From Naganishia liquefaciens (lineage: Eukaryota; Basidiomycota; Tremellomycetes; Filobasidiales; Filobasidiaceae): a stretch of DNA of 64,000 nt. Under the pieces are notes generated by a model. It was not told the origin of the DNA, searched no databases, and was given only the letters and a program-made list of their open reading frames with translations. This document shows, piece after piece, positions 6,070-15,791 of the stretch. Numbering within the stretch: the stretch's first letter is position 1; the number at the start of each line of letters is the position of its first letter. The stretch is taken from assembly GCA_013423385.1 (NCBI GenBank), contig BLZA01000040.1:496001-560000 (forward strand), given 5' to 3'. The position numbers and the translations under genes are program-made.

Positions 6070-6334
6070 GGTATGTGTGTGTGTTGTTAGCTGGATGGTG
6101 GTCGGGTGGGCGGTGTTGCAAGAACGAGCAATGTTCAATCCCCTGATGGCTGGCGGGGGCGAGGCGGGCTGCAACTGGCGGGGGGTCTGATGAATGCTTG
6201 CTTACCTAAGAGCACGATAGTTTGGGGGCCTCTTTCCCGCGGGGACGACTGTTGTGGTCCTCCCGCGCGGTTCTTCACGTTGCCCTTGTCCTGGCATGCC
6301 CATTTCCTCCGCAGTTCCACCAACACACGACAAG

Positions 6335-9125
6335 ATGCAGGTAGACGTCTCTTCCAACCCAGACGTCGTCGCGCACGATCAGTCCTCGGCGCCGGGAAAG
6401 GAGCGCGAGCGCGACCCGATTCTCGGTGGGCAGGTATCCAACATCACAAATGGCATCAACGGTACGTGGTCTCTGCGCACGGGCCTCGTTCGTGGGTTCG
6501 TATGGCTGACGCTGATTGCGGTAGGCACCCCGGCTCCAGAGGATGAGCAAACCAAAGATGACCCCGACGCAATGGAGGACGATCCGCAGGTGCTGCACAA
6601 CCTCGCCGTCACCTACCTCGCGGCCCAAACCCATCCCTTGATCATTCCATCCTACGCATCCTGGTTCTCATTCGCGACCATTCACCCGCTCGAGCGTCGC
6701 TCTTTGCCGGAATTCTTCAGCGGCAAGAACCGCAGCAAGACGCCGGCGATCTACAAGGACTATAGGGATTTCATGATGAACACGTATCGGTTGAATCCGA
6801 GCGAGTATCTGACGGTGACGGCGTGCAGGAGGAATTTGGCCGGGGATGTCGGGGCGATCATGAGGGTGCATGCATTTTTGGAGCAGTGGGGGTTGGTTAA
6901 TTATCAGGTGAGCGCGAGCGTCGAGCGAAGCGAGGATACCTTGAGCGACCGAAGGGAGCGAGAATTACCAGCGCCGCAGGCAAGAAATTCCGAGCGCGCC
7001 GCAGGGCGCGCGAGAATCCCTGGCTCGTCGAGCGAAGCGAGATCACCCCCGAGCGACTGCAGGGAGCGAGAATACCAGCGCCGCAGGCAAGGACTCTTGA
7101 GCAACCAGAGGGAGCGAGAATCCCTCTGCCGTCGAGCGAAGCGAGAGTCCCGGCGCTGCATACAAGGATTTTTCCGGGATCTTGAGTGAAGCGAGAGACA
7201 AGACGCTGCAGGCACGAACACGTCGTCGGCCACCTGAGGATCACAACTCGTCCAGCCTCAGCGAGATACAAACTCTGTAAGATCCCAGTCTATCGCAGGG
7301 CGGCCTTGCACGAGCGATCATTTGTCGGTCGTTAGCAGCTCTCCGCCAAGTTTACACTCCACAACCTTGACGAGACGCGAGCTCCCTCCTCACGCGCCGA
7401 CGATTACAACGTGCAATGTTCAAACGGCCGGCCGGCGATCGCGCTGGAGTCCACACGGATAATTCACTATGAGCGACATCCAGGGCTTTTGAAGCCAAGA
7501 CGTCTCGCCCGAGTTTCCCGGACACTCCAGCCGTTTCAAAGCTCTCCCGCTTCCGCTTCTTGGAACATTCGCTAACCCGACTCTGCCTCCAGGTCGACCC
7601 GGAAACCCGCCCGGCGCCACTGGGCCCTCCCTTCACGGGCCACTTCCGCGTCACACTCGACACGCCCAAGGGTCTCCAACCCCTCCACCCGGGCACACGT
7701 CCACCGGCCAACCTGCCCAAACCCGCAAAACCCGCCGGCCCGGCCGCCTCGTCCAATCTTGACCTGCGCAAGACCATCTACTCGTCCTCAACCGTCGCTA
7801 CCCGCCCGCTCACCCCGCAGGAAGCGCAAAAGACCATCAACGAACAAGCGGCCGAGTTGCGGTCGCGCTCTGGGCCTTCGGCCAAGCGTACCTACACGTG
7901 CGACACGTGCGGAACCGACTGCACGCGAACACGCTACCATTCTCTCAAGGATGGCCAGTACACGCTCTGCGTCGCATGTTACACCTCGGGGCGATTCCCG
8001 GCGACGATGCATTCTGGTGGGTTTGTGCGCATGGACGAAGAGGCGTTCAAGCATGCGCTCGGATCCTCGACGGCTGCCGAGTGGACGGATCAGGAGACGC
8101 TGTTGCTGCTCGAGGGTATCGAGATGTACGACGAGGACTGGGACAAGGTGGCCGTGCACGTCGCCACGAGGAGCAAAGAGCAATGCGTCATGCACTTTTT
8201 GCAGCTTCCGATCGAAGACGAGTACCTCAACGAACCCGATGCCCAGCTTGGACCGCTTCAGTATTCGACAAACGCCGGCGGTGTCGCTGGTTTGGAGGGC
8301 TTGCCATTTGCGCAGGCAGACAACCCTGTCATGAGCGTTGTTGCGTTCTTGGCGTCGGCTGTTGGCCCGGGCGTGGCCGCCGCTGCCGCCCAGAGCGCGC
8401 TGGGCGAGCTCACAAATGGTCTCAAGACTCGCATTCAAAAGGACAAGCCAGAAGAAAAGCCCAAAGCGGATGCCGAAGCCGAAGCCGAACCCGCAGCCGC
8501 AGCCGAAGCCGAGACGGAAATCGAGGGCAAGACCGACGACAAGACAGAAGGCATGGATGTTGATCAGGAGCAAGCCACGGAACCCGTCAAGCCGGCAGAG
8601 GAATCAACAGAGCCGCCGGCTGAGCCAGATGCGTCCCTTCCGCGCAGCCAAGTCGAACGTGCCGCCGCTCTCGCTCTCGGCGCCGCCGCCGCCAAGGCAT
8701 CTACCCTCGCCGTTCATGAAGAACGCCACATCCAGTCTCTGGTCACACGTTTGATCCAGGCCCAGACGCGCAAACTCGAGTCCAAGATTTCCATGTTCGA
8801 GAAATTCGAAGAGCTGCTCGAGCAGGAAAAGCGCAACGTCGAAATCGCCAAGCAACAATTCTTCAAGGACCGCCTGGCCCTGGTTGGTCAGCTTCGACAG
8901 GTACAAGGACTGCTGACACAGGCTCGCCAGCTGAATGCTGGTCCGATCAACGAGCAAGTGGTCAAGCAAGCCGAGGAGCTCGAAAAGAGGCTGGCACCTG
9001 TCGCGCAAAAAGTCGTCCCAACGACGGCTGGCTCGGCAGCGGAAGTGCCCCAGTCGCAAGTACAAGCTCAGGGTGAAGCCGCGATCGAGTTGCCAGAGGC
9101 GGGAACGTATGCGACGCTGTCTTAG
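6335..9125 (+). CDS. Swi3/Rsc8-type SWI/SNF chromatin remodelling subunit
   Basis: Scaffold subunit of SWI/SNF or RSC. Exons: 6335-6461, 6525-6907, 7593-9125, giving 680 aa. Domains in order: SWIRM (about residues 80-170, with IIPSYASWF and [11 protein letters not shown]), the [18 protein letters not shown] linker typical of the family, a ZZ-type zinc finger (CDTCGTDC ... CVACY), SANT ([14 protein letters not shown] ... [10 protein letters not shown]), an Ala/Glu low-complexity stretch, and a C-terminal coiled coil ([16 protein letters not shown]-like). An in-frame upstream ATG at 6296 would add 13 residues; 6335 was chosen for its better -3 context. Intron 1 (6462-6524, 63 nt) has no stop and is in frame. 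Intron 2 (6908-7592) is 685 nt and holds a tandem repeat. Swi3 versus Rsc8 was not resolved. Confidence 0.94.
6921..7200 (+). repeat. Degenerate ~105-nt tandem repeat inside the SWI3-like intron 2
   Basis: GAGCGAAGCGAG occurs exactly at 6923-6934, 7030-7041 and 7134-7145, with a variant GAGTGAAGCGAG at 7184-7195. Each of the first two copies is followed at a similar distance by GGGAGCGAGAAT and CCAGCGCCGCAGGCAAG. Copy spacing is 107 and 104 nt, and the last partial unit is shorter. Confidence 0.8.
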
Positions 9126-9620: not shown

Positions 9621-10230
9621 CTATGCAAAGGGTCCCCCTCGTAGGATGATGATTGCAAAGAAACCGAGCGTATACATTCCCGCCGCAATCGTGAACACTT
9701 CCAGGATTTGACGTCTCGAGATATCTTTCTTTGTCGGGGCCCTGGCTTCAAATCCCGGCGGCAGCATTCAAGCTCACTCAGGGTCATGCCCTCAGCCTTC
9801 ACGAAACATGCAACAATTGGCTTCGCGGTGAGGCCTGGGTTTTTGTTCCTGAGTTCGTCTCCAATAGACTTCAAAGCCTTCTCCAGGGCTTGTCGAACAG
9901 ATTCTTTGCGTTCCTTTTCTGCACTACCGGGCTCCAAGCTGTTGATGACTTGGTCCAAATCAAAACAGCGGACAGAAGATCTTCGGAAACGACCGGAGGA
10001 TCAATAGTGATCCCGGTAGGACAATTGGAGCCCGAAAGCATGCAAGCTGAACTCGCTGGAGATCGCGTTTGGAAACCTGACACAATGGAATGGCCGCAGG
10101 ATTTTTCCGAGGGTGTGCCTTGCGGATCCCAGTTGACAGGTGAACATGTAGTCTGTGCAAATGCCAAGCCAGATAGGGCAGCCGAAGACGGGCAGATGGC
10201 GGTGCCAGCGATGAAGGTGGAAAGGCTCAT
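9621..10230 (-). CDS. Unrecognised tandem family, member 1 (shorter, intron-containing)
   Basis: Unknown function. Best model: exons 10082-10230, 9778-9980 and 9621-9724, 151 aa. The N-terminus has a CP ... CS pair (ICPSSAA, TTCSPVNWDP) like the two paralogs to the right. The middle part ERKESVRQALEKAL ... KPIVACF aligns with their EK-rich helix and PI-x-WF segment. After splicing intron 9725-9777, the C-terminus reads NISRRQILEVF plus a hydrophobic stretch (TLGFFAIIIL). About 60 residues present in members 2 and 3 (around KPT..KRI) are missing or unrecognisable here. The first intron (9981-10081, donor GTCAGG) is the weakest call; a frame break by decay is possible. Confidence 0.5.
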
Positions 10231-11267
10231 GAACAACGCAGTGTAATTGAATGTTGGTGACTAGACCGAGCGAATGATGGCGACTCAGCCATTTTTCCAG
10301 CAGTGGTAGTGGGCCTGTCTATTATACCACGATTCGAGCTTTAAGGGTCTCCTTTGTAGTGTCTCCTGGAAGCGAGAAGAGAAAGGAACAAAATGCGTCA
10401 TTGTGCCATTGGTCTCCTTCGGTACAGCGCTGCCTTGAAATCTCATCAATGCTTTTCTGCACGTCGACGGTCTTCCTTCATTTTACCGAACTTTGCCCTG
10501 ATCTAGTCAATCACTGCTGTTACATCTGGCGGGAATGTCCGATAGCCTCAGTGCGTGATGGGCCAATGATTGCAGCTGGGACGTCCGCTCGGCTTCTGAG
10601 GGTCTGATACTCAGCCGGGACAGTCGCGTGCGAGGCGTGTCGTCGGATTTCCACTTCGTTGTGTACCAGTGATTGGCGTTCGATCTCCTCTTTGACACCA
10701 GCTTTGACATTGCAGAGATGGAACTTTCCTGGGGAGTTGAAACTCGTATCAATTGAGACGCGGTGATCTGACTGTGAGAGGCTGTCCTAATACGACCAGA
10801 TATGGTATATATGTAAATATTTTCGAGATGCACGTGAAAAGCACAATTAATGTCTGGATCTATGATATCAATGCTTGTCATTATACAACAACTCCATCCG
10901 AAAAGAGGTTTGAAGAATGTCACACTATTCGCTTGGTCATGAACTGAGCCTCGACTGGGTCTGGTTCACGCCAAACGAGCAATGACGCTATAACAAGCAA
11001 TATTCGGTCGGAGAGAGGACTACTACAACATGTTTATATAACGGACAGTCCACTTCTCTTGTTTACCATTTTTGGGCGCTTGGAAAATGACTGGTCTTCT
11101 ATAACATTTCCATCGAACCATTGCCACCATCGCCTCCTGACTAAGCACGCGCTCGAGTCCAGATTTGCATTCATGACAATCCTGGAGATGGCTGTAAAGC
11201 AGTGTAACCATGTTATATTCAATTCTTGACTTTCTAAACGAGTGTGTCCGCAGCTGAAGTATGTGCG
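10231..11267. other. Intergenic, upstream of tandem member 1
   Basis: Holds the shared upstream element of the tandem family at 10349-10374. A very AT-rich patch lies at about 10800-10830. Short ORFs here show no family resemblance and I do not support any as a gene. Confidence 0.5.
10349..10374 (-). promoter_or_regulatory. Shared upstream element, copy 1
   Basis: Plus-strand CTCCTTTGTA followed by a TC-rich half and GGAAGCG. In gene orientation the core is TACAAAGGAG. It begins 119 nt upstream of the ATG at 10230. Exact 10-bp matches lie at almost the same distance before the other two paralogs. Confidence 0.6.
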
Positions 11268-11921
11268 TCACTGCAAGAAGAGGCGTAATGCATCTAATAG
11301 CAATAAAGTGCCCCCCAGGAGCTTTGCCTTGCGTAACATCTCGTCGAGTTGACGCTGTTGCAATTGTTCAATCGACATGCCTTCAAAGTCTAGTGTCAAT
11401 ACCGGACGAAAGGAATCTCGGATTCTATCAGTCTTGAACCATATTTTGATCGGCTGGCTGGCCAGCTCTGGACGTATCTCCTTGAAATCCCTTGCCATGG
11501 GCCCCAAAGTGGGGGCCAGGACACGTTGGATTTCCCGTTTTTCCTCCGAACCCAAGTCTTCTCGCAACGAGGTAAGATCAAGGCAAAGGACTTGAAGACC
11601 CTCTGGCAGAACTGAATGAAGGTCACCAAAAATATCGTATCCCAGCCCATCAAGTAGCATGTTGATTCGCTTGTACTTGGTCGGCTTCCCGATCGGGACA
11701 TTGTCCATGTGACAGGGGTTTTCCTGAAGCATTGTGACGGCTCGAGTCACGGCTCTATCTCGCTCAGAGGAAGCCTCTGACGGTAGTGAAAGGTAATCTT
11801 GGGGAGGTGCAGTGCGCGGACCGTATTCGACCGAGCACCATGAGGCTCTCGGGAAGGAATTTACGGATGGGCAGGTCCCAGTAGCGGCGATCGTGGTGAA
11901 GGTGGAGATAGAAGAATCCAT
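11268..11921 (-). CDS. Unrecognised tandem family, member 2 (intronless)
   Basis: Single-exon gene of 217 aa with a true ATG and a TGA stop. I do not recognise the family. Clear paralogy to member 3: shared blocks include CPS and CSVEYGP near the N-terminus, KPTKYKRINMLL, EGLQVLCLDL, SEEKREIQR, ARDFKEIRPEL, PIKIWF, RDSFRPVL and FEGMS..QL..RQLDEMLR. The last about 20 residues are hydrophobic (LLGGTLLLLDALRLF), which could be a tail anchor or a buried helix. There is no convincing cleavable signal peptide. The central half looks helical and charged. It lies in tandem with members 1 and 3, with the same strand and spacing (about 1.4-1.7 kb from start to start). No catalytic motif is visible. Confidence 0.75.
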   Translation of the reverse strand: MDSSISTFTTIAATGTCPSVNSFPRASWCSVEYGPRTAPPQDYLSLPSEASSERDRAVTRAVTMLQENPCHMDNVPIGKPTKYKRINMLLDGLGYDIFGDLHSVLPEGLQVLCLDLTSLREDLGSEEKREIQRVLAPTLGPMARDFKEIRPELASQPIKIWFKTDRIRDSFRPVLTLDFEGMSIEQLQQRQLDEMLRKAKLLGGTLLLLDALRLFLQ

Positions 11922-12614
11922 GGTGAGAACGAGCTATTCTGAGAGGCTGGAAAGATGAAATGTGTTTTAACATTTGATGTTGCAAATAACCGCCAGTTGG
12001 GGCGAGTCTTTATAGTAAAGATCATTATCCTCCGGGCAGCCCTCCTTTGTATTGCTCGCCAGGAAAGCTGCGACCTTACTTGACATATATACCTTTAAGA
12101 TCATGGTTTGATCTCTGGCATGTTTCGCTGATCCCCTCCAAAATATCTGGCATACGGAGTTAGCTAGCGCTGTTGAGCAAAAAGCTCCATGCTTCACCTC
12201 GGTTTGGGGAGAACAACATTCCTTTCTTAAATTGAAAGAAAGGCTGCTGTGGATTATTGAAAGGTAAAGGGTCTGGTATGAGTTTGTGATAGACCTCGTG
12301 AGCACCCCCATGATCTCAAAACGATCATAGCTGGTTTTTGCCTATCGCTGTCCTTCAAGCATCTCCGCGGTCCTCCCTTGGCTTTGAAATGGGATCGTTC
12401 ACATTGATGTATTGCGATTGTGTAAAAAGCCTCGCAATAAATTCTTGTTACAGATGTCACAGTATCGATATCTCTTTGAATCATACCGCTCGCTCCAAAA
12501 GGGTTGTTCCCAGCCAGGTTACTGCCTTTAACTGAAGGTGTTTCAATTCTCGAACAGCCCTTCGCAGAACTTGACTTGACGACAAAGAATCTGCAGCGGC
12601 TCCTGCTGCGAACT
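11922..12614. other. Intergenic, upstream of tandem member 2
   Basis: Carries copy 2 of the shared element (12042-12068) and the 3' flank of member 3. No other gene recognised. Confidence 0.55.
12042..12068 (-). promoter_or_regulatory. Shared upstream element, copy 2
   Basis: CTCCTTTGTA on the plus strand, then a GCTCGCC half and AGGAAAGC. It begins 121 nt upstream of the ATG at 11921. The second half matches copy 3 better than copy 1. Confidence 0.6.
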
Positions 12615-13298
12615 TTACTCCGCACGTCGTCTGAGAGCCCGAAAAGCTATTACTGATAGCCCTCGCCACACAGATGCAACTCCCATCTCAAACGCCCATG
12701 TCAACATTTCCACCCGCAACATTTCCGATTGTCGCTCGCTCAAGGTTTGAGTCGACATGCCCGCAAATTCCGGTCCTAACACTGGCCGCATAATATCACG
12801 GACGTCATCAGCCTCAAACCAAACTGGAATTGGGTGGCAACCAATCTCTGGTCGCATCTTCTTAAAGTCCCGTGCGAGTCCATTCAAAGTTGCGGCTAAA
12901 GCGTGTTTAAACTCCTCTTTTTCCCTGAGATCGAGATTGTTCGGCAACGATTTCATGCCGAGACAGAGGATTTGGGCCCCCTCCGATAGCCCCGATCCAT
13001 TAATGTTGAAGCTATTGTCTATTATCATATTCAGTAGCTTGTCGATTCGCTTGTTGCCAGTCGGCTTGAAGATCTGGATGTAGTCCAACTGGCACAGGCC
13101 CTTGAGTTCTGCTGAAAACTGACTTGACAATTCATCTCTAGAAGGCTCTGTAGTAGACGACGGAATCCGAATGGCATCGGATGGTGAAGTTTCAGGACCA
13201 TACACGACAGAGCAGAAGGGTGCTGTCCCAAAGGTGTTTGAGAGCGGACAAATCGAGGGAAGACCAGTAGCGGCGGTAATGGAAATAGAAGATGTCAT
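12615..13298 (-). CDS. Unrecognised tandem family, member 3 (intronless)
   Basis: Single-exon gene of 227 aa, true ATG, TAA stop. It aligns with member 2 over almost its full length: ATG.PSICP and FCSVVYGPETSP at the N-terminus with the same 11-residue spacing between the two cysteines, then KPTGNKRIDKLL, EGAQILCLGMKSL, REKEEFKHALA, ARDFKKMRPEI, PIPVWF, VRDIMRPVL and FAGMS...L.ERQSEMLR. The tail is hydrophobic then basic (VASVWRGLSVIAFRALRRR). The function is unknown. The even conservation across the core with divergent loops suggests a folded, still-selected protein rather than a decayed copy; that is inference. Confidence 0.75.
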   Translation of the reverse strand: MTSSISITAATGLPSICPLSNTFGTAPFCSVVYGPETSPSDAIRIPSSTTEPSRDELSSQFSAELKGLCQLDYIQIFKPTGNKRIDKLLNMIIDNSFNINGSGLSEGAQILCLGMKSLPNNLDLREKEEFKHALAATLNGLARDFKKMRPEIGCHPIPVWFEADDVRDIMRPVLGPEFAGMSTQTLSERQSEMLRVEMLTWAFEMGVASVWRGLSVIAFRALRRRAE

Positions 13299-14084
13299 CA
13301 GGACAATGCGCTACACTATGTTGGCTGAAAAGACCATGTCAAACCAGCTCGTCAATTATTGGAGAGAGTTTGAAGGTCTCATAGTGATTTCTGTTGATGC
13401 TTTTTCAGGCTCTCCTTTGTAGCGCTCGTTGGAAAAGCGCCGCTCTCCGTTTCAGTGTACCCCTTTCGGGTGTTACCTTCAGTTCGCGTAATCCGGATTT
13501 CCAAACAGAGCTTTAGGACGAGAAGGACAGGTTAATGCGGAGGCACCTCAATCAACCTACCGTTGAGTCTAAAGGCATATGAAACTCCTTTTGTTTCAAG
13601 TGAATGCAAAGGCTAATGGTAGCTACTAGCAGGCCAAAGTGACATGAAGAAAAGCTATGCCATGAACTTCTTCCAGACTTCATGCAACGCTTAAGCGCAA
13701 TGACAGAATCTCTTGAAAGGGTGCTCTGCTATTTCGTAAAGTCGTCAGGCCGAAGACAGCCTGGCGTCTTCTCGCATTATTCTGACCATGATGCCTCGCT
13801 TCGTCTCCTAAAGGGGAGTTTGATCGGGTCTGCTTCAAGTTCCGATAAATGGCAGAAAGACTACAACCTTTCCTGGCATTTCAACCTAGTCGCCTTGTCG
13901 GTCTCTCTCATATCATGGGCTGGACATGTACAGCGAGGAATCTCTCGCCAGAAGCGGCCACATAGCTTTGTATTTCAGCCGTTTTCGGAACTCTGGTAAT
14001 CATACAACGTCGCAAAACCCCATCGAGCTAACCGGTTCGTTATACAGATAGAACCAACAGACCAAGCGGGTGTGAAGTTCGCTG
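13299..14084. other. Intergenic, upstream of tandem member 3
   Basis: Contains copy 3 of the shared element (13412-13440). An ATG-started ORF of 105 codons at 13682-13999 (+) has no recognised domain and may be chance. The right end is the 3' flank of sulfite oxidase. Confidence 0.5.
13412..13440 (-). promoter_or_regulatory. Shared upstream element, copy 3
   Basis: CTCCTTTGTA on the plus strand followed by GCGCTCG and GGAAAAGCG. It begins 114 nt upstream of the ATG at 13298. The three copies agree at all ten core bases. Confidence 0.6.
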
Positions 14085-15791
14085 CTATGCCTCGACTAGC
14101 TTGACGCTCCATCCATCGAATCCCACTCCCCGTAAGTTCCAGTCGGGCCATCGCGTCTGTTCGCGGCCGTTCGCGTCAACTGCCAAAGTAACCAGACACA
14201 CAAAAACCCGAAGTCAACAGATTCAAAGAGTCAGTAATTGCCTCTCTTCCTAGGTGTTTCGATGACGTACTTGCTTTCGCGACAGCGACGATCTGTCCCT
14301 GAGTCACCCCTCCCGTCATCGCGTGCAAGTCATCCAAAGCTACCTCTGCCTCCCACAGGTTCCACCCCCAATTTTTCTTTCCCGCTGCCGAGGCGATCTT
14401 GACTCGCTTCGCTTCGCCAGACTTTGCCGCAGCTTGCTTCGTCAATTCTTCGTCGAGAGATGGGTTGTACGGCTGATCGGAGGGCAGTGTCAAGAAAAAG
14501 ATGTCTACTTCCGTCAAGGGCACGCCTGGCGAGAAGGGGGGGTAAAACCCCTAATTAGCCTCGTATGGATGATCAGTGAAAGAACCTACCTTTCTCGCCG
14601 AGACCGTACCCCTTTAGCAAGATCTTTACCGCACCACCTTCATTGCCCTCGCTGCCTCCATCGCCTACCTCCTGAACCTTCATCTTGGCTTTCGTGATGA
14701 CGCATTGCAGGGGACTCCAGTTCATTGGCTCGGTTTGTGCCATCAGTTTTGCCTTTTCTTCGCTCGACGGTGCCTCTTTGAAGGGTGGATAGGGAATGGA
14801 TTTGTAGTCTTGCTGTTGTGCGTGATGTTGAGACTGAAGTCAGGCGTGGAGGGTCTATCAGATGTAACGTTCCGAGGATTTGCCCCAGAATTAAAGCTTA
14901 CAGGCTTGCGGGAGATGATTATCTTTCGCAACCACTTGATCGATCTTGCGCCGATACTTTGGAGACCGTCGATAGCTTTAGCAGTCTTCGCCACTGCACT
15001 ACATCAGCGAGAGCGTACATTCCCGGTACTACCACCCGCAATGGAGCTCCGTGTTGCAGAGTGAGCTGCTCGCCATCCTGCTGCCATGCCAAGAGAACGG
15101 GAACCGTGGAATCTCTGCAACAGCAAAAGAGTGCCCCATCAGTTTCCACGGGACCTTGGGTGAGCGATAAACACTGCATGAACTCACAGTGCAATCTTTC
15201 GCGGAATGCTGCCTCCAAACACGCCACCTTCATCCTCACCGCAGTCTTGGCTACTCTCGAATATGACATGCCATTCCTCGTCGCTCTTCTCTTCCAGACG
15301 AGGAAAAAGATCCACGAGTACCGAGCGTAGGAGACAGCCCTTCCAAATGATATTGGCAATGGTGGATTCTTGCCATGGGATGCCTTCTGTAGGCGGGTTT
15401 GTGTGAGAGAAGAGGTCTCTTCTGTTTCCTGCGCACTGCGGGGAAGTTAGAAATTGATGAAACGATCACTTTGAGCTGTAGTAGTCGCCATATGACGCAC
15501 CTGCAAAGCGATATCTTCCTCGACGGTTTCGTACTTGTCCTGCAATTGAGCCAGTGTCACACGCTTGCTTACACTCGCGCCATCGAGCACTCCATCCTCA
15601 ATCTCCAGGACAACCTCCCAAGATCCCAGCCCCTCAGATCCCTGACGAAACGCTTCCTCTGCGTCTCTGGGAACGGGACCATGGTTGCGATGGTAGAAGA
15701 GGTTGACAGGCGTGACGTCATTCTTGACCAGGTCCTGAGGCTTTGGTTCTGCGTTCAGGGGCTCCTTGGAGTGGGTCACGAGGTCAGACAT
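14085..15791 (-). CDS. Sulfite oxidase (molybdenum cofactor enzyme, no heme domain)
   Basis: Oxidises sulfite to sulfate with a Mo-molybdopterin cofactor. Exons: 15501-15791, 15188-15435, 15019-15114, 14902-14956, 14590-14812, 14271-14525, 14085-14179; 420 aa. The Mo-domain signature LNAEPKPQDLV..VTPVNLFYHRNHGPVP opens the protein. ALQCAGNRRDLF holds the Mo-binding cysteine, exactly across the first splice junction. VVPGIIGARSIKWL follows, then QDYKSIPYPPF, and a dimerisation domain ending WPDWNLRGVGFDGWSVKL. The size and lack of an N-terminal cytochrome b5 domain match the plant/fungal form. There is no SKL-type tail. The donor at 14901 (intron 14813-14901) was chosen by phase. Confidence 0.93.

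Follow-up and report, generated by a model that had tools for sequence, protein, structure and literature searches.

The window analysed here, a 64,000-nucleotide stretch of contig BLZA01000040.1 (positions 496,001 to 560,000) of the deep-sea yeast Naganishia liquefaciens, contains three related copies of a protein-coding sequence, here called M1, M2 and M3, which follow one another on the reverse strand. M3 (12615..13298; 227 amino acids, protein-database entry P0001) and M2 (11268..11921; 217 amino acids) are each a single uninterrupted and intact open reading frame (ORF). M1 (9621..10230, reverse strand) is a related copy spread over three frames, and was read by three-frame translation as a probable pseudogene. 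A fourth copy, M4 (NliqN6_5708; 187 amino acids), lies outside the window on the same contig and on the opposite strand, about 25 kb from M1 (C20:479904-480467, corresponding to L007:3904-4467, forward strand). The original prediction had described a three-gene tandem array; this description holds for M2 and M3, which are intact and share a strand, while M1 proved not to be one ORF and M4 had been missed. When M3, M2, M4 and the M1 core segment (9746..9985, reverse strand, which matches M4) were used to search the whole genome (19.4 Mb in 28 contigs), the family was placed at four loci, all on one contig, with no fifth locus found; such locus counts are lower bounds. The published assembly of N. 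liquefaciens N6 comprises 19.44 Mb in 59 scaffolds, and RNA-seq runs DRR237068-DRR237071, which cover YPAD with and without 10 mM CuSO4 in duplicate, are deposited for it (PMC7679087).

M2 and M3 had been described as aligning nearly end to end. Their alignment covers most of their length, with 41% of its 197 columns identical (E 6e-41 by tblastn) and a z-score of 69.5 against 200 shuffles; the z-scores against shuffles were 17.7 for M3-M4 and 12.9 for M2-M4. Nonsynonymous (dN) and synonymous (dS) divergence between M2 and M3, estimated by NG86, came to 0.55 and 1.54, a dN/dS of ∼0.36 with dS near saturation, and LWL85 was in agreement (dN 0.53, dS 1.52). The original prediction had named a ratio near 1 as the sign of unselected frames, and M2-M3 lie well below it. 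For M3-M4 the NG86 values were 0.76 and 2.07 (dN/dS 0.37), while the dS of M2-M4 was undefined through saturation. M2 and M3 differ at 46, 34 and 56% of the three codon positions in turn, and they are 54.7% identical as DNA and 42% identical as protein, whereas random placement of an equal number of changes (n = 500) gave a mean amino-acid identity of 27%, a maximum of 33%, and stop-free frames in 0.2% of cases. Because dN/dS is ∼0.36 and the amino-acid identity exceeds that of all 500 random placements, the frames are selected, with the qualification that dS is near or past saturation. The paralogs are thus related beyond chance and, for M2-M3, carry selection on the frame, two of the marks of a taxonomically restricted family. 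Their description as fast-evolving is plausible in view of the 41-42% identity, although the pattern of substitution is a purifying one. Identity between M2 and M3 also tracks domains, at 21/47 in the N-terminus, 2/28 in the linker, 12/30 in residues 76-105, 46/90 in the core and 5/20 in the tail. A metagenomic protein, P0122, is identical to residues 64-217 of M2 at 152/154 positions, so M2 is present outside this assembly. Taken together, the copies are almost certainly a real gene family.

The features first proposed to unite this family are distributed unevenly over its members. The cysteine pair is common to M1-M3 and absent from M4, while the motif ARDFK..RPE, put forward as a family-wide mark, occurs in M2 and M3 only. 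Structure prediction of M2 and M3, suggested in the original prediction, yielded models that concur on a core of strand, long helix, strand, helix, strand and helix, and so suggest, at low confidence, a small alpha/beta core. The C-terminal tail was scored as the Kyte-Doolittle mean over 19 residues and compared with 2000 shuffles. The expected hydrophobic tail was evident in M4 (2.22, reached by 4/2000 shuffles) and in M1 frame 3 (2.21, given without a shuffle comparison), both of which are at the level of hydrophobicity of transmembrane segments. The tails of M2 (1.25, reached by 180/2000 shuffles) and M3 (1.14, by 305/2000) did not stand out in this way. Membrane attachment through a C-terminal helix is accordingly a tentative and somewhat doubtful proposal when extended from M4 and M1 frame 3, where the tail is clear, to the family.

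Upstream of the tandem copies, on the reverse strand, the word TACAAAGGAG occurs 128 bp before the ATG of M1 (10349..10358), 130 bp before that of M2 (12042..12051) and 123 bp before that of M3 (13412..13421). No other copy is present in the 64-kb window, and none was found in L007-L009. By eye, TATA-like words begin 32 (M1) and 37 (M2) bases past the start of the element, and TATGAG 37 bases past it in M3. Ungapped identity around the element is 17/34 for M1-M2 and 23/34 for both M1-M3 and M2-M3. Between the element and the ATG, M1 and M2 show no similarity (z -0.7), while some is retained by the pairs M1-M3 and M2-M3 (z 3.0 and 2.3, respectively). We put the chance that this is a shared regulatory element at about even.

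In M1, the N-terminus, the core (9746-9985) and the tail (stop codon at 9621-9623) keep their order but lie in three different frames, and this copy is most simply read as a pseudogene, probably correctly. The alternative is that M1 is a functional gene with unusual introns, which would account for the ordered retention of all three parts together with the stop codon, as well as for the retained upstream element. One candidate for its second intron also begins with the consensus-like donor GTGAGC. However, this junction has no YAG acceptor and the first has no consensus-like donor, and neither the single-intron models of 30-250 bases nor the right-phase pairs of candidates included one in which a consensus-like donor is matched by a YAG acceptor, the intron consensus applied being one that may not be this genome's. 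As two separate introns would also be required, we consider a functional M1 unlikely.

No strong match to a known family was found for any of the copies in Pfam or NCBIfam. Pfam returned 0 families for M2, M3 and M4 at E <= 10 and for two M1 pieces at E <= 1, and the sole NCBIfam match, of M3 to NF040510, reached 11.2 bits where 625 are needed, so that no match came near its cut-off; the copies therefore fall short of the Pfam-A and NCBIfam score cut-offs that define a curated family. Across the Pfam, NCBIfam, PDB, protein, viral, prokaryotic and fold searches, the only outside relative was the near-identical metagenomic M2, which supports the original prediction of an unrecognised, locally duplicated and lineage-restricted family. 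The protein search with M3 returned M3 itself alone, and a profile of M3, M2 and M4 recovered M3, M4 and P0122. As a control, the bromodomain protein of the window reached its relative in Naganishia vaughanmartiniae at 63% identity, so the protein database contains at least one other Naganishia. The family is probably restricted to close kin. The same control also lends weight to a different explanation, namely that the copies belong to an older fungal family and form a branch of it that diverges quickly, with relatives that do exist in other yeasts but fall below the sensitivity of a word-seeded search. Because even the conserved bromodomain protein is just 63% identical, faster proteins could escape the search, and since M2 and M3 are only 41% identical inside one genome, orthologues of these copies could be missed. 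The searches for relatives were word- or pattern-seeded; the protein search in particular requires shared exact 5-residue words, and it scored only 370 candidates for M3 and 3002 for the profile. An older origin of this kind is a serious possibility, although we rate it at less than even.

Two further explanations concern the nature of the proteins and their source. They could be secreted cell-surface proteins with a weak N-terminal signal, a short exposed domain and a C-terminal lipid anchor, as the tails of M1 and M4 stop only a few residues short of the C-terminus, and a hydropathy scan showed mild hydrophobicity at the N-terminus of M1 (highest mean over 11 residues, 1.74). The corresponding means for M2, M3 and M4 are just 1.04, 1.34 and 1.45, which is low for a classical signal peptide, and the tails of M2 and M3 contain charged residues, making secretion improbable. 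Alternatively, the copies could have been captured in an otherwise intron-rich genome, as relics of a virus or mobile element or by transfer from a prokaryote. M2, M3 and M4 are all uninterrupted frames, whereas introns occur in 93.7% of the predicted genes of this strain (PMC7679087), and the G+C content of these intact copies (0.493-0.514) is lower than the 0.533-0.614 of three coding frames taken from the window as controls. Against such an origin, there are just four loci genome-wide, all on one contig. No PHROGs family matched at a convincing E-value (best 0.35), and neither the 25 pattern matches in viral contigs nor the 34 in prokaryotic genomes included a confirmed relative. A fold search with the low-confidence models likewise gave no viral fold at E <= 0.001, and capture from a foreign source seems very improbable.

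The array lies beside ordinary genes. Pfam domains identify a SWIRM/SWI3-like gene on one side of M1-M3 and a molybdopterin-oxidoreductase gene on the other, and a protein mannosyltransferase and Sec20 around M4. The SWI3/RSC8-like gene is in two ORFs, one with the SWIRM domain (6254-7189, forward strand) and one with the ZZ/Myb/SWIRM-associated part (7560-9125, forward strand). At the end of the former lies a GC-rich dispersed repeat (window 6919-7160), found also at L008:952-1751 in the opposite orientation and 69-89% identical in pieces; in L008 it has periods of ∼25 and ∼80 bases. On the other side, window 14919-15359 (reverse strand) encodes an intron-split piece of a molybdopterin-binding oxidoreductase that is probably sulfite-oxidase-like.

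On balance, a four-copy, lineage-restricted protein-coding family that arose by local duplication offers the best explanation of this locus. Local duplication would have spread the copies into an intact tandem pair (M2 and M3), an adjoining and probably decayed copy (M1) and an inverted copy 25 kb off (M4), with the coding frames kept under purifying selection as the pattern in M2-M3 suggests. M1-M3 were probably switched on together, because the tandem copies retain the same short upstream element. Each protein would begin with a region that is rich in Pro, Ser and Thr and probably disordered, and that contains two cysteines in M1-M3. This would be followed by the probable alpha/beta core, in which the second strand carries 'PIxVWF', and by a hydrophobic or amphipathic C-terminal helix, which may anchor the core to a membrane on its cytosolic side. 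What the core does is a guess: it may bind a partner or ligand as part of a response to stress or competition peculiar to the lineage.

A number of results weigh against this explanation or parts of it. Both structure models are of low confidence, with a predicted local distance difference test (pLDDT) of 47.1 and a predicted template modelling score (pTM) of 0.40 for M3, and 50.2 and 0.42 for M2; confidence within the core is mostly 55-77, too low to trust. Membrane attachment is unproven for M2 and M3 because the hydrophobicity of their tails is unexceptional. The tie of M1 to M2 and M3 is weak, at E 0.27 for its core against M3 and 0.58 for its N-terminus against M2 (searches of the window and three loci), and its link to the family runs mainly via M4 (core E 6e-6 in the same searches; 0.0017 and 5.8e-4 in the whole genome). 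As for the upstream element, exact copies of TACAAAGGAG number 33 genome-wide against 53 for the backward control, so that it is not the word that is special but its repetition at one distance. A longer pattern with up to three mismatches was found at 4 places, and its backward control at 5; fewer than three mismatches occurred only at M2 (0) and M3 (1), the M1 place being missed because its spacing differs by one base. Moreover, shared descent may partly explain the element, since the remaining upstream sequence is somewhat similar in two of the three pairs, and in M4 the element is present only in a weakened form, TACAAATAAG, at -100.

The fullest form of the proposal, a new family with its own fold, born within Naganishia and forming a co-regulated, membrane-tethered cassette with a dedicated upstream element and a decaying M1, is distinctly unlikely as a whole. 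The family is real and unnamed, yet of a common kind, that of orphan paralogs, and as it stands it adds one more unnamed family to the many fungal orphan families. If it is young, it would offer a compact case of gene birth, duplication, promoter-element sharing and decay within one yeast locus. A transformation protocol has been published for N. liquefaciens (PMC10684384).

Two groups of known proteins invite comparison with the four-copy family. The strongly hydrophobic segment near the C-terminus of M4 and M1 frame 3 resembles that of tail-anchored membrane proteins, a general class, but the tails of M2 and M3 are only moderately hydrophobic, and no sequence relative was found among known members. 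There is also a likeness to fungal orphan families such as the lineage-specific genes of Neurospora (PMC10684091): like the present copies, these are short genes that belong to no recognised family, cluster locally and include decaying copies. Features of the Neurospora genes are a telomere bias and HET-domain neighbours. The Pfam-identified neighbours here are ordinary ones, namely the SWI3-like, molybdopterin-oxidoreductase, protein mannosyltransferase and Sec20 genes.
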